Source: Chondrosia reniformis
Lineage: Eukaryota; Porifera; Demospongiae; Chondrillida; Chondrillidae
DNA length: 64,000 bases
Direction: 5' to 3'
Assembly (NCBI GenBank): GCA_947172415.1
Contig: OX359197.1
Coordinates: forward strand, 496,001 to 560,000
Under the pieces are notes generated by a model, which had not been told where the DNA came from, made no database searches, and saw only the letters and a list, made by a program, of their open reading frames with translations. Positions 41,101 to 61,250 of the stretch are shown here, in pieces (the stretch's first letter is position 1; each line of letters begins with the position of its first letter). The position numbers were made by a program, and so were the translations under genes.

Positions 41101-44100
41101 ACTTTCCTAAACTTGTGACAGGCATATAGAGCTTTCAATGAGACTGCACTTTTTGCCAACATTTACACCTGTCTCCTTACATCCTCAAGTTTGCTATCGA
41201 GTGTTCTTCTAAAAATAGCAGTTTCTCTTACCTTATTAGGAGAATGTTTTTAACAACTTGCTTTGAGGATTGGCACCTAATTCAGCACATTCTTTTAACA
41301 ATGCATTAGATGATATGGAGATTCCTCAAATACATTCTGTGATAAAATGATAAGCCAACCACAAGTGTTATTGTTGCATATATCTGTCTCTTATCTATAG
41401 GGACACTGCTGGTCAAGAGAGATTTAGAACAATCACAACTGCCTACTACAGAGGAGCAATGGTGAGTGTGGCATCAGCTGACTATCAGTAATATAATAAT
41501 ACAGTGGAATCTCATTATAGTGAAGCTCAAAGGAGACCAAAATAAGTTTCTTATATCAAATATTCACTATATTTGAATGTATATAAAAGTATACAATATT
41601 TGAGAAAAGGGGGGTTAATTGCACTAAGCCGTGCAAAGGCTTTTACGATAAGCAAATTTTGCTTATTATACAATATTTACTGGGGCTAGCAAAATACTGA
41701 GACATTCACTATAAGCGATTTTATTATAATTAGATTCTACTGTATTATGTACCAACATACACCTAACTAATTTCTATAGAGAAAAGGGCAGCAAAGAGTA
41801 AGTTTATCTTTGATACTTTTAAACGTCTACGTAGTAACTGAAGGTCAATTAATGCACTTAAGGTCAAATTATCCATAAGAGATAAAATATGATGCATTTT
41901 TGTATGATCGAAACTGACAAAGATGAACCACTTCCATGTTGACAGGATGGTAGCTTTTATTAGAGTTTAATTCACTGAATTCAATTTCAAAGTATGTATG
42001 TCTATTGCGGACAAGTGAAAGTATATAATATGTATATTTGTATTAAGTTGATTCAGTTGTGCGTACTTTGTAATGCTTCGTTGAATCACTGTGTATTGGT
42101 ATAGTAAAATATCCTGAGAGTTTAAGACTACGTATATATAGGCTACATTCCTAGTGTACTTATTTATGTTGTGACAGGGGGTAATTTTAGTTGCGTTTAT
42201 TATAAAAGATAAGTTTATTGGTACTGCTGATGAAGACCTACGGGTCGAAACGTTCAATCTAGCTCAATTTTGTTGCTGATAGCACCAATAAACTTATTTA
42301 TGTTGGTATCTTCACAATATATTATATCATATCTCTCCTCAATTGCCAATGCTACATAAGTACTTTCATTAGATTATTATGTACTACGTAATTAATATTG
42401 TACGAATGTTTTTATTATTACATTGTATTATAATATATGTAGTTGCATTGGGTATTATGTATTAATATTGTAAAAATGTGTTGGTTATTGTATTAATTAT
42501 TGTATAGGGAATTATGTTGGTTTATGACGTGACTCATGAAAAATCTTTTGAAAACATCAGAAATTGGATCAGAAATATCGAAGAGGTAATTACGTATAGT
42601 ATATTCTTTTAGAGGTAAATATTCTTTTGAAACATGCAATATTTAATGTTTGTTAAAACTTGTATTTTTGAAATTTGAGGCAGAAAACGTGTGTTATGAA
42701 TAATTTTTAGCATGCTACATCTATTCTAGAGTAAAAGGCAGGGCTGCATAGAGGGGGGCAGTGGGGGGATTCCCCCCCCCCCCAGACTTTTGGGAAGTTA
42801 ATAAAAACTGCTTTGACACCCTCATACCATTGGCCCCCTAATTTTTGAAAATTTTCGTTTTGCCCGCCCCCTCCTGGCCCTAGCCCTGAAAGGCCTATAG
42901 GGAACTAAACCTAGTGAGAGCTTTAGATGAGGATACAAAAGTATTCTCATTCGTCTTCTTCTGCTCCACTGGACCAGATAAGATGTATTATATTCTATTG
43001 TATGATGACTCTGTTTCCTAGAAGTCTGTAGTGAGATTAGTTGAAGTTGAAACTGTCGAATGCTCAATATTTTAGTGGTTCATAAGTGACCCCTTAATAG
43101 GTAGTTTCAACTACATGTTGTACATTTTCCAACCATTTTACAATATAAGGGATTTTTCACAACTTTACTGTTTCTACAGTATTATTTACTTGTATTAGAT
43201 TATATATACCTTATGATCAGAAACCTATAGAATCAGATATACCTTAAGCCTTGTGGTTGAACCTTTTTCATTTTTTAATACCCTTCATCAGAGATTTAGT
43301 GTTTGTTGTAATGCTTGTGGTTTTATTGTCAACTTAGCTTACCATCTTTATCCATTTCATTTAGAATGCATCAGCAGATGTTGAGAAAATGATTTTAGGG
43401 AATAAGTGTGATCTTGAAGATTCACGAGTGGTCACCAAGGAGAGAGGGTCGATGCTTGCAACAGAACATGATATCAAATTCTTCGAGACTAGTGCTAAAT
43501 CAGGTCTGAACGTTGAAGAAGCCTTTCTCACTTTAGCTCGTGATATTAAAGAGAAAATGGATAAACCAGTAAGTTTGCTAGCTTTGCCTTTTTTCTATTA
43601 ACCACTGTTAGCATATTAATTTGGTATGTGTGTTATCCCAGCGTATTTGTGCAAGGGTTGCGTATGTGATACCATATAGCGGGAAAATTCAATATCGATA
43701 GCTTTCTAAGGAAAATTAGTCGAGGACTTCATTTGGCGATTTGGCGAGTAGTTTGAAGCTCGCCAAATTTAATTCTTCGCCAAATATTCCTTAGACAGCT
43801 ATCGATATCGAGCATAACAGTATCATCCTCCATTTAAATAATTAAGCCAACGATTGTGTCATAGTTACGGGGCAATCTGCCAAATATAAAACTCACCAAA
43901 TGCTAAAATTGGGCATTTCACCAAATATATTGCCCGCCAAATTTTCCAGCTATACGGTACCTTCCATCTGTCAGCCATTTTATATGAGAGTCTCCAATGC
44001 CTTGTCAATCTTTCTGTTGTTCCACAGGCTCCTCAACCGAATGATGGTGCCGTGAGAGTATCAGAAAATAAAGGAGAAGAAGGGAAGAAACAAGGAGGAT

Positions 44101-44111
44101 GCTGTAATTAA
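38115..44111 (+). CDS. RAB8: RAB8-like small GTPase, copy 1, 203 residues
   Basis: Six exons: 38115-38238, 38366-38426, 41401-41461, 42508-42585, 43365-43568 and 44028-44111. All GTPase motifs are intact: GDSGVGKT (P-loop), [11 protein letters not shown] (switch I with the conserved Thr), [12 protein letters not shown] (switch II), NKCD and ETSAK. The start [20 protein letters not shown] and [13 protein letters not shown] match RAB8, which directs Golgi/recycling vesicles to the plasma membrane and cilium. The C terminus ends GGCCN, a double-cysteine prenylation site. It is the least diverged of three tandem copies with the same five intron positions. Intron 2 (3 kb) and introns 3-5 contain several mobile-element insertions. 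Confidence 0.93.
39464..39642. repeat. MITE-like element with terminal inverted repeats
   Basis: The left end acagtgtttctttcag is matched in reverse by ctgaaagaaaccctgt, and inner g-rich and c-rich runs also pair (ggggggcaaaatg with cattttgcccccc). It lies in RAB8 intron 2. Confidence 0.65.
40203..40300 (+). repeat. R1 repeat fragment in RAB8 intron 2
   Basis: It contains aaagctttcactaggtg and catagcatgtaagaaaatgg. Confidence 0.65.
40752..40815. repeat. 19-bp tandem repeat, three to four copies
   Basis: Unit gttgtcatagttactgtag in RAB8 intron 2. Confidence 0.85.
41500..41744. mobile_element. pogo/Tigger-like MITE
   Basis: The ends tacagtggaatctcattata and, in reverse, tacagtagaatctaattata form imperfect terminal inverted repeats. 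The form CAGTNGAATCTC..TATA is typical of pogo-type Tc1/mariner elements. It is about 245 bp with no coding capacity and lies in RAB8 intron 3. Confidence 0.7.
42158..42305. mobile_element. Short insertion with 14-bp target duplication and a hammerhead-like core
   Basis: acttatttatgttg occurs at 42158-42171 and again at 42292-42305. Between them lie ctgatga (42227-42233), a short hairpin gacc-tacg-ggtc (42235-42246) and gaaa (42247-42250). These are flanked by a perfect 12-bp inverted repeat, aagtttattggt (42211-42222) and accaataaactt (42284-42295). Penelope-like elements and retrozymes carry such hammerhead motifs. No protein is encoded. Confidence 0.55.
42885..42985 (-). repeat. R1 repeat fragment in RAB8 intron 4
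   Basis: It contains aggcctatagggaactaaac and tgagagctttagatgaggat. Confidence 0.7.
43670..43960. repeat. MITE with taccatatagcgggaaaatt-type inverted ends
   Basis: The left end taccatatagcgggaaaatt is matched in reverse by taccgtatagctggaaaatt. A second inner inverted pair (tatcgatagc / gctatcgata) flanks gcgaaatttggcga-type sequence. It lies in RAB8 intron 5. Confidence 0.75.
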
Positions 44112-44586
44112 ATCTTATTTTGCCCATAAATGTAATTCTGATAACTACCAAAATTATTAAAAATTGTTGATTTAGAACCTTATGCATCACAACAGTTGAA
44201 GTAAATGTGTATTGTAATGTTTATATCTGTAGCATGTAGACTGCATGTATCCATGTAGATGTTGTACCTAATTAATATGCATAATTATTAACTGTTTCTA
44301 TAATAATTTGATATATGTGTATAAGACAAAGATTACAGTTGCAAATCGGACAACTTGTATAAACAGTTGATTAGGGATCTACCTTATGATGATTACGATG
44401 ATGTAATCATGTAGGGGGCGTGTTCTCACTATAGGTTTTTTTTATTATGATCCGTATGTTTATCTTGGACAAAGGAACTCATTGTGAGTTTGTTATGTGA
44501 AATATTTGAAAGTGTCGACATCTAAACATCCATCACAGATAGACGTCGAATAATACGAAATTAATCATTTCATTATCCTGCAGGAA
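44112..44586. other. Intergenic between RAB copies 1 and 2
   Basis: 475 bp, AT-rich, with no gene. Confidence 0.5.
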
Positions 44587-46202
44587 ATGTCCAAGTTCTA
44601 CGATTACTTTTTTAAGGTGGTTTTGGTAGGCGACAGTAGTGTGGGGAAGACGTGCATTTTAGTGCGTTTGGCGGATAATAACTTCAACCCAGTATTTACG
44701 TCTACCATTGGTAAATCAACACATCACATGCATCACACCAAATATTGTTAAATTGATGTTAATAGGTTTCAGAGTGTATATACTATAGTTCGATTAATAG
44801 CTTTAGATAAATGCGCCTTTTGCTGCATGCAGGTATCGACTTTAAGATAAAGACATTCGACGTAGATGGAAAGAAAATTAAACTGTCCGTGTGGTATGTT
44901 TAGTTACGTGACGGATTGTATATGTTTCATATACATTCAACTGTTTATCTAGAAAAGCTAAAGTAGATTTTATTTGGAAAATATGATGAAAGCTGATCTT
45001 AAACTCAGTTGTCATCATCAGTGGACTCTGAATTTACCCCACCCACTAATGTCTCCTAAGTAGCTTGATGAGCTAATGAGAGGAACTGAAATTGAATCCA
45101 TGTCTCCCCTTAGCCACTCAATAAGATGATGGACCCATAAACAACTCTTTTGTCCTTATTAGTACTTATCAGTATGGTATATGATGGACCATTAGCTCAT
45201 CGAGCTCTTCAGGGACATGAGTGGGTGGGGGAAATCCAGTGTCCACTGATGATGGATTTTTATTTGTTAATAGCCTATATTTAATGATAAAATAAGGTAA
45301 CCACAAGTGTGTTTGATTCTATAGGGACACTGCTGGTCAGGAGAGGTTTAGGACAATCACGACATCCTATTACAGAGGGGCAAATGTGAGTTGTCGTTAA
45401 TTATGTTTGACATAACCACTTCAAATTACTGTTAATGTTGTAGACATGCGTTTTACTGTTATTACTACATAGGGTATTATGTTGGTTTATGATTTGACTA
45501 ATGAAAACACATTTGAAAGCATCAGAAATTGGATCAAAACAATTAAGGAGGTATGTTTATATTTATTTACATGTGTTTATATGACCCCTAAAGGTAAATC
45601 TATATACTTTAGGAAGTGAATACCAGATCACTCCATATGAGTTTGACTGTGTACATTATGTGTAGAGAAAACCTAAAGTGTATATTTGTGGCTATATTTT
45701 AGCAATATTCCGTGTTTGTTGTAATGCTTGTGGTTTTACTATCAACCTATAATTTAGCGTGCACCAGCAGAAGTTGAGAAAATGATTTTAGGGAATAAGA
45801 GTGATCTTGAGGACTCAAGAATGGTCTCAAAGGAGAGAGGGTGCATGCTTGCAGCAGAATACGGTATCAAGTTCTCTGAGATTAGTGCTAAATCAGGACT
45901 GAACGTTGAAAAGGCTTTCCTTGCCTTAACGCAAGATATGAAAGAGAAAATGGATAAAGCTGAAGTAAGTCTCTAATACCAACTTTTTGGGTGCTACTTT
46001 CATGTTATGGTGGATATAAAGGAATAGTTTGAATGTTATTTTTATATATACTGATTATTTAACTTTAGAAGGATTTAGGTGAATTATTTTAATGCTTGCT
46101 TCCCTTAATTTTGTTCCACAGAGTCCAAAACCAAGACACGAAGCAGTGAGAATACCAGATAAAAAGGAGGAGAAGGAGGCGAAGGAGGGTTGCTGTAAAT
46201 AA
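44587..46202 (+). CDS. RAB8-like small GTPase, copy 2, 203 residues, diverged
   Basis: Six exons: 44587-44710, 44833-44893, 45325-45385, 45473-45550, 45758-45964 and 46122-46202, with the same phases as copy 1. GTP-binding motifs are present: [35 protein letters not shown] and EISAK. The last two differ from copy 1 (NKCD, ETSAK) but keep N.xD and SAK. YYRGAN replaces YYRGAM at the end of switch II. The C terminus is GCCK, still prenylatable. It is probably a functional GTPase with changed effector surfaces and is best called a lineage-specific RAB8 paralogue. Confidence 0.9.
45013..45254. repeat. MITE family M1 copy in RAB copy 2 intron 2
   Basis: The left end catcatcagtggactctg then accccacccactaatgtc is matched in reverse by the right end. 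Related copies lie at 52-61 kb. Confidence 0.75.
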
Positions 46203-46732
46203 ACCTTATTTGCCAAACAAAAATAACTAGGACTATATTGTGAATCTCTTGTACATATTATAATAGTTATATACACAACATGACATAATTAATATGTGTT
46301 CACAATTTGGTATATAGAGGTGAAATGACCAATTAAATTCCATACCAGGGAAAGACAGCCAATATAGTCATGCACATACAGATCAAACATAATTTTTCTT
46401 CTATATACGTATACCATTTCCACAGCTAATATTATATGACTGTTTATTCTTCTCTTCCTATATTTACCATATATCTCACCATACATTATATTGTGAACAC
46501 GCGAGGATGACCAAATATGGCACACTCCCATGCAATCCAAGTAACTTGTTAAAGCGTCATTGACTCAAATGTCAAATGATGATATCGATGATGTAATTCA
46601 CATGATACTGTAAGAATATCGCGATCGCCAAAAGGTTTTTTTTTCATTAATTTCAGTATTTAAAAGTTTACCGAGAAACATCTTTAGTCTGTTTTTATTC
46701 CATTTGTAATTGTACGTCGTCTGTGTCCGGGG
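46203..46732. other. Intergenic between RAB copies 2 and 3
   Basis: 530 bp, AT-rich, with no gene. Confidence 0.5.
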
Positions 46733-49700
46733 ATGCCCAAATTGTACGATTATCGCTTTAAGGTCTTAATGGTAGGCGATAGCACTGTTGGAAAGACTAG
46801 CATTCTACTCCGTTATGCAGAAGGTGACTTCACTCCAACATTTACACATACCATTGGTGAGCATTGTAGATACGACAAGCAAAATATCCCGTACCGAAAA
46901 TCTACTAGGAAATGAAACATACGCTATATAAGTGCTTGGAGGATTTTTATTGTGTATGTATAGATTATTCTGTGTTATAGGAATTATATAGATTGTAAAC
47001 TACTGTACATAAATGCATGACATTGTATACATGCTAGCTGCATATAAAAACTATATACTAGCCATTTGTATACCTATATACTTCCATTTAACAGATTGTA
47101 TACATGAATTCGAAATTCCAGCTGAAAATTTAAAGGATTTCATAATAAAAAATATGTTTAACTATACCCTTCAAATGTTGAATATACTTCACTTGGCTTT
47201 GTTTATTGTGCATGTAATGTGTTTTGTATGTTTTATGTGAATTATTCTAAAGGTGAAACTAAAATAGGAATCTTATATAGATTGCAATTGAAGAGTAATA
47301 ATTGTTCATGCATGCATGAATGTGCAAATATATATAGGCATATAAACTATACTAGAATGAAATATATACATACGCTTGAATGAACGTTTGGTTTAGATTT
47401 TAAAAATGAAAAGTCATACTCTAAACTGTGTTAAGCATTCAGGCTGAGAAATGTACTGCATGTCACAATATAGGATTAAGATTAATATATATATGAATTT
47501 CTTTTAAATACTGCCAAAAATTTAGGTATTGACTTTAAGATGAAAACATTTGAAATGGATGAAAAGAAAATAAAACTACAGATATGGTAGGTATAGGTCT
47601 GATTACCATACTATATCAAGGAAATCTATTATTCTGCATGCCATGCATATAGTGCAAATATGGATTGTTGTTTTATGATAAATCAGTAGCTATATAGCTA
47701 ACCATCTATAAGTGGTATATGATTTATATTTGAATATTTATATTTGAATCCTATAATTGTATATAGGGACACAGCTGGTCAGGAGAAGTTCAGGACAATC
47801 ACCGCATCCTTTTATCAAGGGGCTGCGGTCAGCGAACAGATTTTGTTATATAGATCTTGTATACATAATACATATATATGCATGAAGTGAAGGTTATTGT
47901 TATTAATATAGGGTATAATGTTGATTTATGATGTCACTCATGAAAAATCCTTTGACAATCTCAGATATTGGATTACAGAAATTAAGGAGGTATATATTTT
48001 CATGTATACTTACATTTGCCCTATCTCTCACCATATGAAAAATCTAAGATACCATTTTCCTACATGCTATGCTATATGCATACATTAACTTTGTATGCCA
48101 GTAATTTAATGTACATTAATAGTGCTGTAACTCTATCAAATGGAGATCTAGAGATATATGAAGCTGCAACGTTGTGTCAGTGTTCCCTGACATGTATGAA
48201 GGGTTCCAATGAGTTTTACAAATTTTGATACATACCCAAATTTGCCCTATCTCTCACCATACATTAACTTCGTATACCAGTAATTGTACATTTAGTGCTG
48301 TAACTCTATATATCCAATGGAGAGATATAAATCGTAAGATATCAGATGCCAATCCCACATACGTGGAACCCGGATTATTGGTGAGCACGTCTCTATGGCA
48401 CCAACTGATTAGGAGACAGCTTCAGAGTCTAACTACTACCAACCACTATGGGAACCGCTACCACCATAGAGATGTGTCCAGGTAGGCCTACTTTATACGC
48501 AGTGGCTAGAGTGCTGGTACCGTATTTAAAGAATTGACATGTTCGTTACGGGTACTGATATCATTAATTTTTGGATTAGTATACCAGTAAGGTTTGTTAC
48601 TCTAAGCCGGGTTATCATTGACTTGTTTATTACTGCATGGCACTGAAATAAGGTTTTCTTCCACATGATACCAGCATGACCTACAACAATTTACATTTGA
48701 ATTTCTTGTTGCTATATTTTTTGGAACTTACGTCTTCCATCATGGCCACCTTCCTCATGTTTCGCAGGTTATTGCATTTATTTTAAGAAGAATGATTATT
48801 ATTTTACTACTAATGACTTCATTGCCTTTAAATCATATTCATGAAATATATCGATATTCATAGGACCACAGAAACATTACCCGCACGTTAACACATTTTT
48901 CTGTACCAGTACGGTCCCTTGTATATTTATTAAGTTTTGAAATTTCCCTAAGTAAATTGTAAAGTAAAGTAGAGTAAAAATAGCCAAAAAGGTAACGATG
49001 CCGGTACCGGTAGCGATCGTAATAAGTCATATAGTACCGGTACCGGTGCTTTAACTAATAAGGTAAAATATAGTCTACATCCTGTAAAAAGTTTTTTTGG
49101 AATTCTCTTCAATATTAATTTTACATATCACAACGAGAAAAAAGAAGAAAAAACGACCCAAGCGTGTTTGGAACTCAATCGTTTCCCAGACCCTTCAACA
49201 AATATCGCGATATGCAAACGATAAGAAAAAAAGAGAAAAACGTCCATTCTCAGTGGGTTACAACAAATATTGCGATATACTGACGATAAGAAAAAAGAAA
49301 ACACCAGTCACGTTAGCCAGCAGAGACTGCTGTTACCGTCGAGCACCACGAGGAGGTGTGACTTGGATTTTGCTCGACGCAGGAAGTTCACGTTACCATC
49401 CACAATGCGAGCCGTCCTTCCATCGCTGGTCGTCTGGGGCCAGGATCGTTGGTAACGCCTAACTGGTGCAGTTTCGGCTTTGGTAGTCACGGAGTGACAG
49501 AACCGGCCTTATCCCTCCCCGGGTTCCGTTGTATCGATAAATCGATAATTGGTGAGCACATCCCCATGGCACCAACCGATACAGGGCAGCTACGGAACCT
49601 AGACACTACCAAGCCATCGAGTAAGGACTCACTCTCTTACCCGAGGCTCCACGCTGGCAGGCCTGAATGGTCATGTTAAAATGGACTATTTATATGCAAC

Positions 49701-50635
49701 TACGTTGGGAAATGATAAAGAAAAAAAAGGAAAAAACTGATTATCGTTGTAATTGATCCCATTCCAGAAGCTTCCTTTTATTCTATACGCTTCTCTCTCG
49801 CATCACTCTGCCACCAGCGCGGTGGTGATGGAAGTGAAAATATACTAGTTATAAATGTGCTGCAACTTTTGTGTCAGTGTTCCCAGACACATATGACAGG
49901 TTTCCAATGAGTTTTGCAAATTTTGATATCTATATACCCAAATGTGTCCCATCTCTCACCATACCTTAACTTTGTATGCTAGTAATTTTCTTTGTTTATA
50001 TTATATATTATAGAGTGCATATGCATCTGGAGATGCTGAAATGATGATTTTAGGGAATAAGTGTGATCTTGAGGACTCACGAGTGGTCACCAAGGAGAGA
50101 GGGTCCATGCTCGCTGCAGAATATGGTATCAAGTTCTTTGAGACTAGTGCTAAATCGGACTACAATGTGAAAGAGGCCTTCCTTGCCTTAGCTCAAGCCA
50201 TTAAAGAGAAAATGGATAAACTATTAGTAGTAAGACTTAGTGTTAATGGCCAAATTTGCATGCTTGAAATATATACAATATACTCAACTATATATCCTAG
50301 CTCATATATAGGCCTAGGCCTGTACTATATAAACAAAACCATTTTCATAAATTTGTTGATTTCTAAAAATTACGATTTTTCGATGTAGAAGTCTAGTGGT
50401 AGCCATTTTGTTAATTACATATAAGCACTGATTCAGCCAACCTAAATATATGGCAGCCTTTATAATTAATTAAAGGCGTATAATTTTCATTTTATTATTA
50501 CGGTTATATACCCTTGTTCTTTCTCCTCTTATTAAGGTTCCTCAGGTCACACTGAACGTATCAGAGGATAACATGGCAATGCAGAAGGGGGGGGAGAGAA
50601 AGCCAGAGAGCTCGAGGTGCTGCATACGTAATTGA
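46733..50635 (+). CDS. RAB8-like small GTPase, copy 3, 212 residues, most diverged
   Basis: Six exons: 46733-46856, 47526-47586, 47767-47827, 47912-47989, 50014-50229 and 50537-50635. Intron positions and phases match copies 1 and 2. Motifs are GDSTVGKT, HTIGIDFKMKT, WDTAGQEKFRTI, NKCD and ETSAKSD. Switch II has K for R after QE, and SFYQGAA replaces AYYRGAM. The hypervariable tail is longer and ends RCCIRN (CCXXX-type prenylation site, as in RAB11). An alternative acceptor at cctcag inside the last exon would remove three residues in frame. Intron 4 is 2 kb and holds R1/R2 repeats and a GC-richer insertion. Confidence 0.88.
48010..48310 (+). repeat. R2 interspersed repeat, one long and one short copy in tandem
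   Basis: Both copies contain ccctatctctcaccatac and cagtaatt. The long copy also has gtcagtgttccctgacatgt and ttccaatgagttttac. An R1 fragment (aagataccattttcctacat) is embedded at 48036-48075. Confidence 0.65.
48370..49700. other. GC-richer insertion in RAB copy 3 intron 4, unresolved
   Basis: Two diverged stretches, at about 48375-48485 and 49549-49615, share ggtgagcac and atggcaccaac and then drift. The part at 49300-49680 is GC-rich, and a purine-rich stretch precedes it. Open frames exist but none resembles a known protein. It probably derives from a transposable element. Confidence 0.4.
49855..49990 (+). repeat. R2 interspersed repeat, third copy in this intron
   Basis: It contains gtgtcagtgttcccagacac, ttccaatgagttttgcaaat and atctctcaccata. 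Confidence 0.65.
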
Positions 50636-50892: not shown

Positions 50893-51924
50893 TTACGATT
50901 GTGATATCTGCTTCCTTTTCTCCTCCAACCACTCATGAAGTTGCAATATCCTTTCTTCACACTTTTGCTGTTCTGTATCCACGTACCTTCCCCTTAAGGC
51001 CTTGAAGGCTTCTACTGTGGCATAAGGCGTCTGGGTCACAGGGTCAAAGTACTTGGCTACCTGACCTGTTATGGGACAGAAATGTCTCCTAGGGATTCTT
51101 GGGGAAACCTTTCTAGGGAAAATTTCCTCTATAGTGGTTGCATCTGAAAATTCTACAAAATTTCTTGAATAATGCAAATTACTTCCAACTTTGGGTGGAT
51201 CATTTGAAATGTCAATTGCATTAGACAAGCTAGTATCGACAATTTCAGATCCATCTTTCTCACTAACAAGAGGCATTGTCATTGAGAGATACCTTACGGT
51301 AGGGCCACTTACAACTTTTCTTCTGGATGTCGTCTTTTTCTTTTCTTCTTCAAGTCTCACAAATGCTTCAAGAGACCTAAGATTTTCGATTTCTGTCAAT
51401 TTTGCTTCCTCCAACAACTCGGCTTGTGTAAACACCCTGTCAGTTGTCTTCTTGCGAGGGACGTTCTTCTTTTTAGCCTGTAATCGGCGTTGCCTTTTTC
51501 TTTCTTCCGTAAACTCGACAGTTGATTTTCTCAACGTTCGTTCTTCTCCTTCTTGAGTTGAGTAAGATGGGGCCTTTGGCTTCCCCGCTCTAGGAACTCT
51601 CTCCTTTTTGTCTCCAACCTCCTTTCGAGCCGCCTTCTCGCGAGCTATCGATTTAGCTGTAATTTCAGAAAGTTTCTTTTTCTTCCTTTTCGGCTCATCC
51701 ACTTCATCTCCAGACTCTCCTTCTGAGTCCTCATCTTCGGGGCGATCGAAATCAGAATCCACTAGGTCTTCTTCTTCTTCTTCCGATTTGTAGAACTCGT
51801 CGCCGCTAACTTCTTCAAATCCTCCATAGGCTGTTGAGTAGAACTCATCCAACTTTTCCTCGCTTTGTAACAATTTTGAAATGTTTTTGCCAGCATTAAC
51901 TCTTCTGCTTCTATCAGCAGCCAT
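50893..51924 (-). CDS. VPS72: VPS72/YL1, histone H2A.Z chaperone subunit, 343 residues
   Basis: A single exon with ATG at 51924 and stop at 50893-50895. The N-terminal H2A.Z-binding region begins MAADRSRRVNAGKNISKLLQ and continues GGFEEVSGDEFY, then an acidic run (SEEEEEDLVDSDFD) and long basic/charged helices. The C-terminal YL1_C domain (about 279-315) has HFCPITGQVAKYFDPVTQTP followed by YATVEAFKALRGRY. YL1 is a subunit of the SRCAP and TIP60/p400 complexes and escorts H2A.Z-H2B for deposition in the nucleus. The length is close to human (364). The gene converges on RAB copy 3. Its first 160-190 bp are copied twice further right as exon 1 of chimeric genes. Confidence 0.95.
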   Translation of the reverse strand: MAADRSRRVNAGKNISKLLQSEEKLDEFYSTAYGGFEEVSGDEFYKSEEEEEDLVDSDFDRPEDEDSEGESGDEVDEPKRKKKKLSEITAKSIAREKAARKEVGDKKERVPRAGKPKAPSYSTQEGEERTLRKSTVEFTEERKRQRRLQAKKKNVPRKKTTDRVFTQAELLEEAKLTEIENLRSLEAFVRLEEEKKKTTSRRKVVSGPTVRYLSMTMPLVSEKDGSEIVDTSLSNAIDISNDPPKVGSNLHYSRNFVEFSDATTIEEIFPRKVSPRIPRRHFCPITGQVAKYFDPVTQTPYATVEAFKALRGRYVDTEQQKCEERILQLHEWLEEKRKQISQS

Positions 51925-52037
51925 TTTGGGACTTAATTACAATATCGCAATTTGTCGATAATCGGATCACATTCTATTATAAACTCAATTACATGGATTG
52001 GATTTCTAGTTATAAAATAAATTGAATAATTGAGTGC

Positions 52038-54231
52038 TTAGGGTAAATAGAGGAGGTTACTAGATGAAAACTTGTGATAGTAGCCATTTTTTGGAGGCAG
52101 TTTCATTGATAGAAGTTCAATTTCAAACACTTTATGACTTCCATGATATTTAGTCAGGAGATCTTCATAGAATTTCCTCTTTAACTTGACCTCATAGAAA
52201 GCCTTCGTCAGCCTGGCGACTGTGAGATGAGGAGTAAACCTCTCCTTGAGAACCGTGGATTCAATACCAGCAGAAACAAATGCAGTTCTAACTATGTCTA
52301 TATGGAACAAGTGAAAAGGTGTTTAGTAATGAAAGCAAGTGATGTCTGTAAGTATGTCATCATTTTTTGACTCTGGATTTCCCCCACCCACTCGTGCCTC
52401 CCGAGGAGCATAATGAGCTAATGGGTGTAGCCATCACTTAACGGGAACCAGAGTCTCCCCTCAGCCACTAAAAGGTGGTTAGCCATAGATCCAGAGTCAA
52501 ATGATGATTAGATCAAAGCTTTAAAATTGGCTTTAGATCTAAAATTCCCCCATTTTTCAAATATTTAAGTATCTTTGAAAGGGCTCATTTTTGGTCTCCT
52601 CGGAGCATCTAAAGATGCAGTTATGGCTGAATATTCCTATCTCACATTTCAATACTTAAAAGAGATTGAAAGATGTACCCTTTCAATTTAACTTCAATGT
52701 AGATAGAAGAAATTCTACATATATATTGTAAAAGCAAGATTAGATAACAGGTCACTTCTTAGAGTAACACAAGTGTTTCATTGGAAAGCAAGTTCCACTA
52801 CTGCTCTGGTCTATTCTAGTGTGAGTACATACTTGTGATGGTGTGCAACACTTTGAATGTCTCCTGATTTTCAGGGTCTAGCGGAGCAAACACAACATTC
52901 TCGCCAAAACTATCCAAGCCTTTGAAAGACAACTCCAGGGGAGAAATGGCATCCAGTTTACCAGTAAAGTGCTCTGTTATATTCTTACAAGCGGTAGTTA
53001 GTGCCTTCTTTGCCCTATCCAGCAGATCAAAAGGATTCACAGTTTAAACAGTTTAACATGGAACTTAACTCTTCATTAAGATACTACATATTTTCATCAC
53101 CTCCCAGCTATACATACTTAGGACTCACAAAAGATCAAGAAAAAGACAAAGATTTCCAGGGTCACTGATGAAGGGTGGAATTCCCAGAACAGCTGTCTGG
53201 CCTGGTGGAGAAGAAGAGAAGGAGAAGGAGAAATCTCTTGTATCCTCATCTAAAGCTCTCACTAGGTTTAGTTCCCTATAGGCCTTCACTCTAAAGTAGA
53301 TGTAGCATGTGAGAGAAAGGGTGTAGGAGACTAATATAAAGGTCACTGGTATGAATTGATATGTGACTTGGTAGAATAAACATTAAACTACATCTCTTCA
53401 TCACCTCACAGCTACACATATACGTACGTAGGTCACTGGTAGGACTTAGAGTTCACAATACTTTATACAGGAAAAGTAGGGGAAATCTTAAAGCATTGAT
53501 ATATCATCAGTAAACTCTGGATATTACCCCACCCACTCATGTCTCCTGAGGAGCGCAATGAGCTAATGGGTGGAACCAAAGTTTGCTTGATGGGAACCAG
53601 AGTCTCCCCCTAGCCTAGGTGCTCCTCAGGGGACATGAGTGGGCAGGGGTAATATCCAGAGTTCAATGATGACAGTTGACATAGTTGGATACTGAAGGCT
53701 CACAGTTCTAGTCTATCTACATCCTTTCCCAGTTTCATGACCATTAGAGTGATGTGTAGCTTGTCCAAGGAGACCAAGGCTCCTTTCAGCTTCGGGTCCT
53801 TCTCCACCAGTACTTGCTGCACCTCTTCAAAGGAAGCTCTAATTTGAGGCGACTGGATCCTCAGTGACAGGAAGGCATCAGGAGAGGCGGGCTTGGCTCT
53901 GGCTTCTTGCCTTATTTGGGGATGCTTGCTTCTTCTTTTGGAACCAACTGGGAATTCAGGACCTGGGTTCAGAAAGGTCAAAGTTTAAAGGTCATAATTA
54001 ATTCGGATAGTGTGCAAGATTATACCGTTAAACACACTATATGGAACTGCTATTAAGTGACACTGGATCTACCAAACATTTTCAAAATGGCCGACTACTA
54101 CCTAAGGGGCGAAGGTCTTCTTCTTCTTCTTCCGATTTGTAGAACTCGTCGCCGCTAACTTCTTCAAATCCTCCATAGGCTGTTGAAATGTTTTTGCCAG
54201 CATTAACTCTTCCGCTTCTATCAGCAGCCAT
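52038..54231 (-). CDS. Chimera 1: VPS72 N terminus fused to AKAP7-like 2H domain, 276 residues
   Basis: Exons are 54102-54231 (ATG at 54231), 53704-53962, 52833-53014 and 52038-52297, joining in phases 1, 2 and 1 to 277 codons including the stop. Exon 1 is the VPS72 start with an in-frame 42-bp deletion (14 residues after GKNIS) and one 3' change, then ...EEDLRPL before donor gtagta. Exons 2-4 encode an AKAP7-type 2H phosphoesterase domain with both catalytic HxT motifs intact: KLHITLMVM and RFTPHLTVARL. Compared with the other copies it lacks five residues after the second motif. The 3' end reads ELLSMKLPPKNGYYH as in AKAP7. AKAP7 family proteins bind nucleotides and some cleave 2',5'-oligoadenylates. 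Expression is unproven. Confidence 0.65.
52358..52508. repeat. M1 MITE, short form
   Basis: The ends tttgactctggat and atccagagtcaaa, with flanking catcat/atgatgat, lie in intron 3 of chimera 1. The same insertion is at 55687-55837 and 58975-59125. Confidence 0.75.
53145..53330 (+). repeat. R1 repeat in intron 2 of chimera 1
   Basis: A nearly full copy, duplicated with the unit at 56460-56660 and 59755-59945. Confidence 0.8.
53505..53672. repeat. M1 MITE, long-armed form
   Basis: The left arm actctggatattaccccacc then cactcatgtctcctgagga pairs with ctcctcaggggacatgagtg then ggcaggggtaatatccagag. Matching copies lie at 56833-57002 and 60131-60299, and a lone right arm is at 61196-61250. Confidence 0.8.
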
Positions 54232-54892
54232 TTTGGGACTTAATTACAATATCGTAATTTGTCGATAATCGGATCACATTCTATCAGAGAGTACGGTAGT
54301 ACTCTCTAAGTAGGAATGTCGGAAAAAAAAATGGCCGCCCTATCCAATGTATTAGCAATCAACACATCATAAATCGCCAACGAAACGATTTTCGGTTATA
54401 TTCGGTTATTTGCAGCGATTAATGCACGCTTTCCTAAATGCCAAAACATGTTTCGACGCTCTACACGCTCTATAGCGTTCAAAAAGCGGCTAACTAGGAA
54501 TAGACCCACTTTCAAATTCATTTTTTCTTCTTCTTCTTCTTCTTCTTCTTTTATTGAATAGACTAGCGCTAATATGCGAACTTGTGCGGGCACGTACTAG
54601 TTATAAATCGTCATAAATATTTCGAAACTAGGGAATAGACAGCCCTAAATCTGAATGCGCTCTACAATAAGCATGTTAATTGTGAAGAGCGAAAATTGTG
54701 GTCTTCTCGGACGCCATTTTTTAATTAAGAGATCATGGTTTTCGGCATATTTCTCTTGTCTAAGACGTTATTTTGAAATCTTCGCCAAGAAAACTTTCAA
54801 ATCAATTTAAAACTAGTAATATTAAGAGGAAAAAAGGGGGAATACAAGTAAATAAAAAACATTTACAAAAATGATGTTAGAAGTAGAAATAT

Positions 54893-55312
54893 ATCCATGT
54901 AATTGTGTTTATAAAAGTAAATAAAAAACATTTACAAAAATGATGTTAGAAGTAGTAATGGCAGTGTTCACTAATACATCTGCAAAAAGTATCGAAACAA
55001 GACACTGATTATATGATAAGGCTAATCATACAGAAGTTGCATATATACTGAAATTTAAGTAACTTAACCATACACTTCTGTGTTTGGGCGCACCATTCCT
55101 ACTTAAGGTTAGTGCACCCAAACACAGAAGTGTATGGTTAAGTTACTTAAATTTCAGTATATATGCAACTTCTGTATGATTAGCCTTATCATATAATCAG
55201 TGTCTTGTTTCGATACTTTTTGCAGATGTATTAGTGAACACTGCCATTTCTACTTCTAACATCATTTTTGTAAATGTTTTTTATTTACTTTTATAAACAC
55301 AATTACATGGAT
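54893..55312. repeat. Large near-perfect palindrome, arms about 200 bp, unit 2
   Basis: The left arm (from atccatgtaattgtgtttat at 54893) is repeated in reverse up to 55312, with few mismatches. The spacer cattcctacttaaggtta is at 55094-55111 between gcgcac and gtgcac. The arms include host flank (ataaacacaattacatgg), so the palindrome formed after, or together with, the insertion. A further direct copy of about 45 bp of the arm precedes it at 54846-54890. Confidence 0.92.
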
Positions 55313-55351
55313 TGGATTTCCAGTTATAAAATAAATTGAATAATAGAGTGC

Positions 55352-57603
55352 TTAGGGTAAATAGAGGAGGTTACTAGATGAAAATTTGTGATAGTAGCCA
55401 TTTTTTGGAGGCAGTTTCATTGACAGAAGTTCAATTTCAAACACTTTATGACTTCCATGATATTTAGTCACGAGGTCTTCATAGAATTTCCTCTTTAACT
55501 TGACCTTATAGAAAGCCTTTCTTCTTGGTAGCTGTGACAGCTTAGCGACTGTGAGATGAGGAGTAAACCTCTCCTTGAGATCCGTGGATTCAATACCAGC
55601 AGAAACAAATGCAGTTCTAACTATGTCTATACAGAACAAGTGAAAAGGTGTTTAGTAATGAAAGCAAGTGATGTCTGTAAGTATGTCATCATGTTTTGAC
55701 TCTGGATTTTACCCACCCACTCGTGCCTCCCGAGGAGCATAATGAGCTAATGGGTGTAGCCATCACTTAACGGGAACCAGAGTCTCCCCTTAGCCACTAA
55801 AAGGTGGTTAGCCATAGATCCAGAGTCAAATGATGATTAGATCAAAGCTTTAAAATTGGCTTTAGATCTAAAATTCCCCCATTTTTCAAATATTTAAGTA
55901 TCTTTGAAAGGGCTCATTTTTGGTCTCCTCGGAGTATCTAAAGATGCAGTTATGGCTGAATATTCCTATCTCACATTTCAATACTTAAAAGAGATTGAAA
56001 GATGTACCCTTTCAATTTAACTTCAATGTAGATAGAAGAAATTCTACATATATATTGTAAAAGCAAGATTAGATAACAGGTCACTTCTTAGAGTAACACA
56101 AGTGTTTCATTGGAAAGCAAGTTCCACTACTGCTCTGGTCTATTCTAGTGTGAGTACATACTTGTGATGGTGTGCAACACTTTGAATGTCTCCTGATTTT
56201 CAGGGTCTAGCGGAGCAAACACAACATTCTCGCCAAAACTATCCAAGCCTTTGAAAGACAACTCCAGGGGAGAAATGGCGTCCAATTTACCAGTAAAGTG
56301 CTCTGTTATATTCTTACAAGCGGTAGTTAGTGCCTTCTTTGCCCTATCCAGCAGATCAAAAGGATTCACAGTTTAAGCAGTTTAACATGGAACTTAACTC
56401 TTCATTAAGATACTACATATTTTCATCACCTCCCAGCTATACATACATAGGACTCACAAAAGATCAAGAAAAAGACAAAGATTTCCAGGGTCACTGATGA
56501 AGGGTGGAATTCTCAGAACAGCTGTCTGGCCTGGTGGAGAAGAAGCGAAGGAGAAGGAGAAATCTCTTGTATCCTCATCTAAAGCTCTCACTAGGTTTAG
56601 TTCCCTATAGGCCTTCACTCTAAAGTAGATGTAGCATGTGAGAGAAAGGGTGTAGTAGACTAATATAAAGGTCACTGGTATGAATTGATATGTGACTTGG
56701 TAGAATAAACATTAAACTACATCTCTTCATCACCTCACAGCTACACATATACGTATGTAGGTCACTGGTAGGACTTAGAGTTCACAATACTTTATACAGA
56801 AAAAGTAGGGGAAATCTTAAAGCATTGATATATCATTATTGAACTCTGGATATTACCCCTGCCCACTCATGTCCCCTGAGGAGCGCAATGAGCTAATGGG
56901 CGGAACCAAAGTTCGCTTGATGGGAATCAGAGTCTCCCCCTAGCCTAGGTGCTCCTCAGGGGACATGAGTGGGCAGGGGTAATATCCAGAGTTCAATGAT
57001 GACAGTTGACATAGTTGGATGCTGAAGGCTCACAGTTCTAGTCTATCTACATCCTTTCCCAGTTTCATGACCATTAGAGTGATGTGTAGCTTGTCCAAGG
57101 AGACCAAGGCTCCTTTCAGCTTCGGGTCCTTCTCCACCAGTACTTGCTGCACCTCTTCAAAGGAAGCTCTAATTTGAGGTGACTGGATCCTCAGTGACAG
57201 GAAGGCATCAGGAGAGGCGGGCTTGGCTCTGGCTTCTTGCCTTATTTGGGAATGCTTGCTTCTACTTTTGGAACCAACTGGGAATTCAGGACCTGGGTTC
57301 AGAAAGGTCAAAGTTTAAAGGTCATAATTAATTCGGATAGTGTGCAAGATTATACCATTAAACACACTACATGGAACTGCTATTAAGTGACACTGGATCT
57401 ACCAAACATTTTCAAAATGGCCGACTACTACCTAAGGGGCGAAGGTCTTCTTCTTCTTCTTTCGATTTGTAGAACTCGTCGCCGCTAACTTCTTCAAATC
57501 CTCCATAGGCTGTTGAGTAGAACTCATCCAACTTTTCCTCGCTTTGTAACAATTTTGAAATGTTTTTGCCAGCATTAACTCTTCCGCTTCTATCAGCAGC
57601 CAT
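55352..57603 (-). CDS. Chimera 2: VPS72 N terminus fused to AKAP7-like 2H domain, 295 residues
   Basis: Exons are 57432-57603 (ATG at 57603), 57034-57292, 56162-56343 and 55352-55626, with phases 1, 2 and 1 and 296 codons including the stop. Exon 1 keeps 57 VPS72 residues through KSKEEEEDLRPL with no internal deletion, so the whole N-terminal GGFEEVSGDEFYKS segment is present. The 2H domain has KLHITLMVM and RFTPHLTVAKL, plus SQLPRRK after the second motif. The VPS72 upstream sequence is kept for about 55 bp, then the 1-kb insertion follows. Otherwise as chimera 1. Confidence 0.68.
56460..56660 (+). repeat. R1 repeat in intron 2 of chimera 2
   Basis: Duplicated with the unit; see 53145-53330. 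Confidence 0.8.
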
Positions 57604-58203
57604 TTTGGGACTTAATTACAATATCGTAATTTGTCGATAATCGGATCACCTTCTATCAGAGAGTACGGTAGTACTCTCTAAGTAGGAATGGCCGGAAAAA
57701 AAATGGCCGCCCTATCCAATGTATTAGCAATCAACACCTCATAAATGGCCAACGAAACGATTTTCGGTTATTTGCAGCGATTAATGCACGCTTTCCTAAA
57801 TGCCAAAACATGTTTCGACGCTCTACACGCTCTATAGCGTTCAAAAAGCGGCTAACTAGGAATAGACCCACTTCCAAAATTCATTTTTTCTTCTTCTTCT
57901 TCTTCTTTTATTGAATAGACTAGCGCTAATATGCGAACTTGTGCGGGCACGTACTAGTTATAAATCGTCATAAATATTTCGGAACTAGGGAATAGACAGC
58001 CCTAAATCTGAATGCGCTCTACAATAAGCATGTTAATTGTGAAAAGCGAAAATTGTGGTCTTCTCGGACGCCATTTTTTAATTAAGAGATCATGGTTTTC
58101 GGCATATTTCTCTTGTCTAAGACGTTATTTTGAAATCTTCGCCAAGAAAACTTTCAAATCAATTTAAAACTAGTAATATTAAGAGGAAAAAAGGGGGAAT
58201 ACA

Positions 58204-58577
58204 AGTAAATAAAAAACATTTACAAAAATGATGTTAGAAGTAGTAATGGCAGTGTTCACTAATACATCTGCAAAAAGTATCGAAACAAGACACTGATTAT
58301 ATGATAAGGCTAATCATACAGAAGTTGCATATATACTGAAATTTAAGTAACTTAACCATACACTTCTGTGTTTGGGCGCACTAACCTTAAGTAGGAATGG
58401 TGCGCCCAAACACAGAAGTGTATGGTTAGGTTACTTAAATTTCAGTATATATGCAACTTCTGTATGATTAGCCTTATCATATAATCAGTGTCTTGTTTCG
58501 ATACTTTTTGCAGATGTATTAGTGAACACTGCCATTTCTACTTCTAACATCATTTTTGTAAATGTTTTTTATTTACT
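58204..58577. repeat. Large near-perfect palindrome, unit 3, spacer inverted relative to unit 2
   Basis: Arms match those of 54893-55312. The spacer at 58382-58399 reads taaccttaagtaggaatg, the exact reverse complement of the unit 2 spacer. Confidence 0.92.
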
Positions 58578-58639
58578 TTTATAAACACAATTACATGGAT
58601 TGGATTTCTAGTTATAAAATAAATTGAATAATAGAGTGC

Positions 58640-60997
58640 TTAGGGTAAATAGAGGAGGTTACTAGATGAAAATTTGTGATAGTAGCCATTTTTTGGAGGC
58701 AGTTTCATTGACAGAAGTTCAATTTCAAACACTTTATGACTTCCATGATATTTAGTCACGAGGTCTTCATAGAATTTCCTCTTTAACTTGACCTTATAGA
58801 AAGCCTTTCTTCTTGGTAGCTGTGACAGCTTAGCGACTGTGAGATGAGGAGTAAACCTCTCCTTGAGATCCGTGGATTCAATACCAGCAGAAACAAATGC
58901 AGTTCTAACTATGTCTATACGGAACAAGTGAAAAGGTGTTTAGTAATGAAAGCAAGTGATGTCTGTAAGTATGTCATCATGTTTTGACTCTGGATTTTAC
59001 CCACCCACTCGTGCCTCCTGAGGAGCATAATGAGCTAATGGGTGTAGCCATCACTTAACGGGAACCAGAGTCTCCCCTTAGCCACTAAAAGGTGGTTAGC
59101 CATAGATCCAGAGTCAAATGATGATTAGATCAAAGCTTTAAAATTGGCTTTAGATCTAAAAGTCCCCCATTTTTCAAATATTTAAGTATCTTTGAAAGGG
59201 CTCATTTTTGGTCTCCTCGGAGCATCTAAAGATGCAGTTATGGCTGAATCTTCTTATCTCACATTTCAATACTTAAAAGAGATTGAAAGATGTACCCTTT
59301 TAATTTAACTTCAATGTAGATAGAAGAAATTCTACATATATATTGTAAAAGCAAGATTAGATAACAGGTCACTTCTTAGAGTAACACAAGTGTTTCATTG
59401 GAAAGCAAGTTCCACTACTGCTCTGGTCTATTCTAGTGTGAGTACATACTTGTGATGGTGTGCAACACTTTGAATGTCTCCTGATTTTCAGGGTCTAGCG
59501 GAGCAAACACAACATTCTCGCCAAAACTATCCAAGCCTTTGAAAGACAACTCCAGGGGAGAAATGGCGTCCAGTTTACCAGTAAAGTGCTCTGTTATATT
59601 CTTACAAGCGGTAGTTAGTGCCTTCTTTGCCCTATCCAGCAGATCAAAGGGATTCACAGTTTAAACAGTTTAACATGGAACTTAAGTCTTCATTAAGATA
59701 CTACATATTTTCATCACCTCCCAGCTATACATACTTAGGACTCACAAAAGATCAAGAAAAAGACAAAGATTTCCAGGGTCACTGATGAAGGGTGGAATTC
59801 CCAGAAACAGCTGTCTGGTGAAGTGGAGTAGAAGAGAAGGAGAAAACTCTTGTATCCTCATCCAAAGCCCTCACTAGGTTTAGTTCCCTATAGGCGTTTA
59901 TTCTAAAGTAGATGTAGCATGTGAGAGAAAGGGTGTAGTAGACTAATATTAGACTATTTTTATAAAGGTCACAGGTATGAATTGATATGTGACTTGGTAG
60001 AATAAAAATTAAACTACATCTCTTCATCACCTCACAGCTACACATATACGTACGTAGGTCACTGGTAGGACTTAGAGTTCACAATACTTTATACAGAAAA
60101 AGTAGGGGAAATCTTAAAGCATTGATATATCATCATTTAACTCTGGATATTACCCCTGCCCACTCATGTCTCCTGAGGAGTGCAATGAGCTAATGGGTGG
60201 AACCAAAGTTCGCTTGATGGGAACCAGAGTCTCCCCCTAGCCTAGGTGCTCCTCAGGGGACATGAGTGGGCAGGGGTAATATCCAGAGTTCAATGATGAC
60301 AGTTGACATAGTTGGATGTTGAAGGCTCACACTTCTAGTCTATCTACATCCTTTCCCAGTTTCATGACCATTAGAGTGATGTGTAGCTTGTCCAAGGAGA
60401 CCAAGGCTCCTTTCAGCTTCGGGTTCTTCTCCACCAGTACTTGCTGCACCTCTTCAAAGGAAGCTCTAATTTGAGGCGACTGGATCCTCAGTGACAGGAA
60501 GGCATCAGGAGAGGCGGGCTTGGCTCTGGTTTCTTGCCTTATTTGGCGATGCTTGCTTCTACTTTTGGAACCAACTGGGAATTCAGGACCTGGGTTCAGA
60601 AAGGTCAAAGTTTAAAGGTCATAATTAATTTGGATAGTGTGCAAGACCGAGATTATACCATTAACCACACTACATGGAACTGCTATTAAGTGACACTGGA
60701 TCTACCAAACATTTTGAAATGGCTGACTACTACCTAAGTGTTTACTGGGCCTATTGCATTATTATGTCACACAAGAGCAACATATAAACACTGCGACACA
60801 CTTCTATCTGTATCCATATTTGTCAGAACTGGACAATCACCGATCACTCTACTGGTCACAGAACGCTGTTTAATGTCTTCATCAAATCCAGAAGGGGATG
60901 GCAGACCTGAAAGACTATCTAATCTCTTCAGCTCACTAGAATCTGTCCGTTCTTCTTGGACAGCTCCTCTGTCAGTGATTACCTTTCTTTCTGCCAT
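58640..60997 (-). CDS. AKAP7: Parental AKAP7-like 2H phosphoesterase, 303 residues
   Basis: Exons are 60802-60997 (ATG at 60997), 60331-60589, 59450-59631 and 58640-58914, with phases 1, 2 and 1 and 304 codons including the stop. Exon 1 encodes a polar, probably disordered N terminus (MAERKVITDRGAVQEERTDS). The 2H domain follows with PDAFLSLRIQSPQIRASFEE, first catalytic KLHITLMVM, LSFKGLDSFGENVVF, second catalytic RFTPHLTVAKL and the AKAP7-like end ELLSMKLPPKNGYYH. No PKA-anchoring helix is evident after it. The native exon 1 marks this as the source of the two chimeras. It diverges from the CD36-family gene. An extra upstream exon is possible (see 61711-61833). Confidence 0.8.
59755..59945 (+). 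repeat. R1 repeat in intron 2 of the parental AKAP7-like gene
   Basis: The best-preserved full copy of R1, from aaagatttccagggtcactg to tagatgtagcatgtgagaga. Confidence 0.8.
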
Positions 60998-61195
60998 CAG
61001 TGCAGCTGGGATTGAGAGGGCTCCGAGTTTATAAACTGTTACAGGACACTGATTGCCAGCTTCACTGCCCGTCCATAGAAATCTCAAATGAGCAAATATC
61101 AAGTTCTTATTCTACAGTTCCAATAACATTAAATTTGATACAATTTTCATCATCTGTATAAAAGTGAATGTCAAAATAATACAATACAATACTGC

Positions 61196-61250
61196 ACTCC
61201 TCAGGGAACATGAGTGGGCAGGAGTAATATCCAGAGTTCAATGATGATGA
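61196..61250. repeat. Solo right arm of M1 MITE
   Basis: It contains ctcctcagggaacatgagtg and gtaatatccagagttcaatg, with no left arm nearby. Confidence 0.65.

Follow-up and report, generated by a model that had tools for sequence, protein, structure and literature searches.

The window analysed here, a 64,000-nucleotide stretch of the genome of the sponge Chondrosia reniformis (contig OX359197.1, C9 of the 15 contigs and 117,379,552 bases analysed; positions 496001-560000), contains a tandem array that joins the gene VPS72 (YL1) to an AKAP7-like gene and thereby creates two chimeric reading frames. The array consists of three units of ∼3.3 kb, recovered by repeat search and self-BLAST at ∼95-98% identity, in agreement with the tandem triplication proposed in the preliminary description of this DNA. 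All of its genes lie on the minus strand, and an intact VPS72 and the AKAP7-like gene bound it on either side. We favor, with moderate confidence, a reading in which this is a young and genuine tandem array that was made in steps and whose chimeric products are weakly spliced.

Alignment places the breakpoints within the VPS72 coding exon (51740-51763 region) and within AKAP7-like intron 1, as had been suggested. On the plus strand, AKAP7 intron 1 sequence ending in CCTAAG (54106) is followed directly by GGGCGA, corresponding to VPS72 51740-51745. The next 18 nt of VPS72 (51746-51763) are missing at both junctions, where the sequence resumes at 51764. Because this deletion and the position of an inserted repeat are common to the two junctions, both descend from one event. 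Given the identity over 2-3 kb and the shared junctions, the array is not a chance resemblance. Another YL1 copy as source was rejected, as the two YL1 matches across the genome are the full-length VPS72 and junction 2.

The array and its history are very probably real. The array is just 10 kb long and known here from the assembly, for which an alternate haplotype is deposited (PMC12181767), and haplotypes of a polymorphic locus might have been strung together during assembly. We consider this highly unlikely, the least probable of the alternatives. Both junctions have the same base-level breakpoint yet carry different later changes (a 42-nt deletion and repeat indels), and the middle unit is a mosaic; these features together require a real rearrangement. 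In addition, the assembly, described as 117.37 Mb in 14 chromosomes and a mitochondrial genome, was built from HiFi reads (run ERR10224860; ∼70x; 10.31 Gb in 0.80 million reads, hence a mean of ∼13 kb) together with Hi-C, and these reads exceed the unit length (PMC12181767).

The mosaic structure of the middle unit is apparent when the left (1), middle (2) and right, parental (3) units are aligned: 58 sites are private to one of the two outer units, 14 to unit 2, and at one site all three differ. Of the 58, all 17 sites up to 52382, in unit-1 coordinates, ally unit 2 with unit 3, and from 52402 onward it sides with unit 1 at 30 of 41; a split this clean was not reached in any of 20,000 shuffles. 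Towards exon 4 the middle unit thus resembles the right unit, and over exons 2-3 it mostly resembles the left one. Unequal crossing-over within intron 3, with the two outer units as partners, would yield this pattern, and gene conversion could imitate it. With such a crossover, chimera 2 would have parental exon 4 behind the older chimeric exons 2-3. The putative site of this crossover (52382-52402) falls within a copy of a short dispersed repeat that occurs in introns and flanks at 52355-52472, 53514-53615, 45010-45121 and 61193-61248, and is partly inverted around 53504-53672.

Both chimeric units, and not VPS72 itself, carry a high-copy repeat in their upstream region. The preliminary description had put the VPS72 promoter in front of the chimeras. 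This was overstated: 53 bp of VPS72 upstream sequence are kept before each ATG, but beyond them lies a ∼1-kb repeat that is absent at the real VPS72, so that the promoter is at most a 53-bp remnant. The left ∼606 nt of the repeat recur, 88-98% identical, in no fewer than 39 locations beyond the window, a lower bound set by scoring 40 of 1,899 first-look candidates, and a role of the repeat as a host regulatory module was rejected on account of this spread. In all seven outside loci that were read, the left end is the same and the right end runs to TTTACTT, after which one further base may or may not belong to the repeat. The right flank differs among these loci, two of the seven having identical flanks. 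The empty site at VPS72, CTAT/TATAAAC, is compatible with insertion between T and T, and Helentrons are described as inserting in a TT dinucleotide (PMC5148889). With a short hairpin at its left end (read by eye), the repeat is a candidate non-autonomous Helitron2/Helentron element. Its right part is a ∼380-nt palindrome, whose folding energy is -206.9, compared with an average of -32.4 over 100 shuffled sequences. The palindromes at 58199-58582 and 54874-55332 are near-perfect (∼380 nt in the second copy), and the loop is inverted between the copies.

Over ∼560 nt, the repeat copies at junctions 1 and 2 share two derived sites relative to the seven outside copies and have five and two private sites, respectively. 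Two independent insertions were judged unlikely, given the same base position and the two shared derived sites. The argument for a single insertion comes mainly from the identical position, since by raw distance the junction 2 copy is no closer to the junction 1 copy (7 differences) than to one outside copy (L014, 7; the other six, 8 each). At the other end of the units, the stop codons of chimera 2 and of the parental AKAP7-like gene are each followed, 61 nt downstream, by the start of the repeat, whose end supplies an AATAAA 69 nt from the first stop-codon base; the 130 nt at the matching place in chimera 1 hold neither AATAAA nor ATTAAA.

Both chimeric copies keep coding potential. Chimera 1 (ATG 54231, exon to 54102, exon 2 from 53962) encodes 276 residues and chimera 2 (ATG 57603, exon to 57432, exon 2 from 57292) encodes 295, which reproduces exactly the lengths and splice coordinates first put forward. 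Exons 2, 3 and 4 are joined across GT/AG introns of matching phase in all three units, in each of which the two 2H motifs are also intact, as had been claimed, in the form H-I-T and H-L-T (HITL, HLTV); the 2H phosphoesterase motif is given as H-phi-(S/T)-phi (PMC8406329). The Pfam domain AKAP7_NLS scores 104.7 bits in chimera 1 (8.3e-30), 116.2 in chimera 2 (2.4e-33) and 117.4 in the parental body (1.1e-33), against a cut-off of 24.4. Searched with chimera 2, the best solved relatives are AKAP7 gamma (5jj2), AKAP18 (3j4q) and AKAP18 delta (2vfk), with further matches to the YL1 structures 5chl and 5fug. The frame stops seven residues past the aligned domain in chimera 2, with the same ending in all three units. 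In A-kinase anchor proteins, the helix that binds protein kinase A (PKA) RII lies C-terminal to the 2H domain. No such C-terminal PKA-anchoring part is present here; by sequence, therefore, these proteins are not A-kinase anchors and are AKAP7-like by domain only.

The suggestion that part of an H2A.Z-binding segment stands at the N terminus is weakened. Chimera 2, whose residues 2-55 align to 5chl (3.2e-09), is the only one that still passes the cut-off for Pfam YL1 (30.2 bits, with 29.2 required; 6.1e-07), over profile positions 1-48 only. The six residues VDSDFD, which in VPS72 align to the YL1 structures 5chl and 5fug, are gone from both chimeras, and chimera 1 lacks a further 14 residues (42 nt), KLLQSEEKLDEFYS. 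Neither chimera thus has the complete N-terminal ∼65-residue H2A.Z-binding domain of YL1, including VDSDFD. Pfam gives no YL1 or YL1_C match in chimera 1 at E≤1 and no YL1_C match in chimera 2; the VPS72 parent has both domains, and neither chimera has both.

Two other AKAP7_NLS places in the genome were rejected as the true source. One, at C5:6666479 within a long open frame, shares 28% identity with the protein of chimera 2; the other, at C5:8349779-8350469, is not listed by a search with that protein at E≤0.001. The latter (L026, L032) lies near low-complexity frames with WMDG and QWYPITVVPHYSG units in opposite orientation. A search for relatives of the exon-4 peptide in a prokaryote contig collection gave 169 pattern matches, none of them confirmed, as expected for an animal gene. 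The putative exon 1 of the parental gene has no Pfam match at E≤1.

Table 1. Features of the VPS72-AKAP7 array, in window coordinates
Feature	Position	Strand	Description
Parental VPS72 (YL1)	50893..51924	-	One uninterrupted frame, 51924->50893, 343 residues; Pfam YL1 7.1e-33, YL1_C 4.4e-13
VPS72 breakpoint region	51740..51763	-	GGGCGA (51740-51745) kept; 18 nt (51746-51763, VDSDFD) absent at both junctions
Chimera 1 first exon	54102..54231	-	VPS72-derived, 42-nt in-frame deletion; ends at cryptic donor 54101/54100
Chimera 1 AKAP7-like exons 2-4	52038..53962	-	53962-53704, 53014-52833, 52297-52038; 15-nt in-frame deletion in exon 4
Junction 1	54107..54112	-	AKAP7 intron 1 ...CCTAAG (to 54106) joined to VPS72 GGGCGA
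Repeat copy at junction 1	54285..55290	.	High-copy, 1006 nt, 53 bp upstream of chimera 1 ATG; right part palindromic
Chimera 2 first exon	57432..57603	-	VPS72 residues 1-54, RP and junction-derived bases; ends at donor 57431
Chimera 2 AKAP7-like exons 2-4	55352..57292	-	57292-57034, 56343-56162, 55626-55352; mosaic of outer units
Repeat copy at junction 2	57657..58578	.	922 nt, same place, 53 bp upstream of chimera 2 ATG; ∼380-nt palindrome
Parental AKAP7-like exons 2-4	58640..60589	-	60589-60331, 59631-59450, 58914-58640; AKAP7_NLS 1.1e-33
Putative parental exon 1	60770..60997	-	Open frame from ATG 60997; four phase 1 GT sites as candidate donors

The sequence shows that a single duplication event fused intron 1 of the AKAP7-like gene with the middle of the one VPS72 exon. 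We propose that the ∼1-kb high-copy repeat would have inserted after this first duplication, and that an unequal crossover in intron 3 would then have given the third unit and the second chimera. Transcription may start near the VPS72-derived start, from the core promoter remnant or from a promoter supplied by the repeat, and the transcript would be spliced weakly from TTAG/GTAGTA into AKAP7-like exon 2. The predicted product is a 2',5'-phosphoesterase-type domain in which a short, acidic, VPS72-derived N-terminus replaces the native one. That at least one chimera yields a spliced, in-frame mRNA is possible, if somewhat doubtful, and a selected function for the chimeras is unlikely.

A number of observations weigh against working chimeric products. 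The chimeras are known here from genomic sequence alone (an RNA-seq run for C. reniformis, ERR10177766, is reported to exist; PMC12181767), and the repeat has taken the place of most of the VPS72 upstream sequence. The VPS72 fragment had been said to end at a usable phase 1 donor. The phase is as described, with TTAG/GTAGTA in phase 1 matching the phase 1 acceptor of exon 2 (CCCAG/GT), and we estimate such frame compatibility alone to be roughly a 1-in-3 event; the donor, however, is made of AKAP7 intron sequence and is weak. It was scored against native donors of the same genome, taken from Rab introns that had been positioned solely by protein score: 29 candidate introns, less 7 whose donor was not fixed by at least 5 bits, left 22, and two AKAP7 donors brought the set to 24. 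TAG/GTAGTA beats just 2 of these, the other 22 scoring higher, and vertebrate donor frequencies, used as a second matrix, likewise put 2 of the same 24 below it. The phase 0, out-of-frame site GAA/GTTAGC, 58 nt upstream (54159 and 57489), outscores the junction donor; the same bases are present in VPS72, whose frame is uninterrupted. With the vertebrate matrix, a GT beyond the stop codon (54037 and 57367) also outscores it in each junction. An identical CTTAGGTAGTAG stands in the parental intron, so nothing shows that the donor improved after the fusion. On these scores the junction donor is possibly usable in principle, but weak.

Tests of divergence give evidence on both sides. Against a neutral expectation built from the noncoding mutation spectrum of the array (one-sided P), chimera 1 compared with the parent (10 nonsynonymous, 6 synonymous; P = 0.28) and chimera 2 compared with the parent (5 and 2; P = 0.63) are indistinguishable from neutral. 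On the favorable side, the comparison of chimera 1 with chimera 2 (7 nonsynonymous, 8 synonymous) gives a ratio of nonsynonymous to synonymous change (pN/pS) of 0.26, with P = 0.034, which is uncorrected for being one of three tests and whose exon-4 part may also reflect change in the parent lineage, as exon 4 of unit 2 is probably parent-derived. Coding divergence is below intron divergence for units 2 and 3 (7/716 versus 37/1362, P = 0.009) and not significantly so for units 1 and 2 (Fisher P 0.62) or 1 and 3 (0.47). Differences private to unit 1 occupy 12 of 701 coding columns and 13 of 1361 intron columns. Also in favor, the three identified coding indels (18, 42 and 15 nt) are all multiples of three, against two of the six intron indels that separate units 1 and 3 (1, 6, 1, 14, 6 and 1 nt) and two of five for units 2 and 3 (1, 6, 14, 6 and 1 nt); units 1 and 2 differ by one intron indel, of 1 nt. 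Considered together, these data are weak evidence for selection on the chimeras.

It is about an even chance that both internal units are silent or mis-spliced relics, whose frames persist merely because the array is young. The duplicated AKAP7 exons would have lost their start exon, and the repeat, 53 bp from the ATG, would have broken what promoter remained; the weak donor and its stronger out-of-frame competitor point the same way. There are few coding differences between the units (15, 16 and 7 per pair) and ∼3% of random changes would create a stop, so survival of the frames is little evidence of use. Relics of this kind are less readily reconciled with the preservation of frame in all three identified coding indels, with the intact splice dinucleotides of exons 2-4 in all three units, or with the pN/pS of 0.26 between the chimeras.

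The weak donor is also consistent with a second alternative, in which the junction exon is expressed unspliced as a short VPS72 N-terminal peptide that might titrate H2A.Z-H2B. At both junctions the frame continues past the donor and meets a stop within a few codons, giving predicted peptides of 49 and 63 residues from the ATG that end in GSSRPF just beyond the donor, and an N-terminal VPS72 domain is reported to have been used to deplete H2A.Z from Xenopus egg extracts (PMC7408173). However, VDSDFD is absent from both peptides, and the first is also without the KLLQSEEKLDEFYS stretch that aligns to 5chl and 5fug. We regard this alternative as very unlikely.

Elsewhere in the window, exon matches to Rab/Ras-type GTPases on the plus strand (38142-50388; near 38142, 43365, 44614, 45743 and 50023) apparently form a local tandem cluster, in which 45760-45958 and 50022-50220 are 84% identical. 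Four long single-exon frames, at 18060-19460(-), 20527-21885(+), 23683-25098(-) and 27128-28750(-), have no Pfam match above the cut-off and each carry, as judged by eye, a hydrophobic stretch towards the C-terminus; BLASTP links three of the six possible pairs, at 21-24% identity, and they are perhaps an unnamed local membrane-protein family. Minisatellites occupy 10021-10597 (47 bp x 12.3, 96% match), 35950-36391 (28 bp x 16.1) and 3054-3229 (22 bp x 8).

Birth of chimeras by tandem duplication is already known as a kind, and the closest known case is Sdic of Drosophila melanogaster, described as an sw-AnxB10 chimera from segmental duplication of two adjacent genes that underwent tandem expansion, with unequal crossing-over invoked and a transposable-element fragment in the repeat unit (PMC7475035). 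The sponge duplication likewise spans two adjacent genes with the fusion inside the repeat, its later tandem expansion may have occurred by unequal crossing-over (the mosaic unit 2, which gene conversion could imitate), mobile-element sequence, the high-copy repeat, lies within its unit, and, as in the Sdic type, every chimeric copy has coding potential. In contrast, it involves other genes in another phylum, comprises two chimeras and depends on a cryptic splice donor; moreover, the Sdic type is an expressed chimera with a phenotype, whereas the sponge chimeras are read from genome sequence only. Tandem duplications commonly give chimeras in D. yakuba, where 15 lines are reported to hold 76 of them, with 5' and 3' gene segments shuffled by breakpoints inside genes (PMC5460883). 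They resemble the sponge array in their gene-internal breakpoints, but are population variants with RNA-seq, whereas the sponge case is one assembled genome. The sponge proteins resemble AKAP7 (AKAP18) in the AKAP7_NLS domain and both H-x-T motifs, and differ in lacking the C-terminal PKA-anchoring part and, in the chimeras, in the replaced N-terminus. Similarly, chimera 2 resembles the YL1 H2A.Z-binding domain over the part that aligns to 5chl, whereas VDSDFD and nearly all beyond it are absent from the chimeras. The one search made for a report of this particular case, in an open-access library, gave no paper that combines VPS72, AKAP7 and fusion.

Mammalian AKAP7 is described as a nuclear 2',5'-phosphoesterase, with an N-terminal signal deciding between nuclear and cytoplasmic location (PMC8406329). 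By analogy of domain, the new N-terminus could relocate a domain that cleaves 2',5'-oligoadenylate (2-5A). A fuller proposal, which we consider quite unlikely, is that a 2',5'-phosphoesterase gene was amplified and given a new start and upstream region, from the VPS72 start and a mobile repeat, to produce one or two species-specific 2-5A-degrading enzymes of altered location. C. reniformis is reported among sponges with surprisingly high activity of 2',5'-oligoadenylate synthetase (OAS; PMC2852836). The Pfam OAS domain PF10421 has no match in the genome, nor in any of 14 control genomes, so nothing follows from this absence.

If the chimeras are silent, the array is an ordinary young tandem duplication. 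If they are expressed, it would offer a base-level case from outside the insects in which the birth of a chimeric gene is preserved in all its steps at one locus, with the two parent genes, the initial junction, the inserted mobile repeat and the product of the crossover adjoining one another. With OAS activity reported to be so high in C. reniformis (PMC2852836), extra 2',5'-phosphoesterase genes with new starts would also bear on the role of the 2-5A system in animals without interferon.

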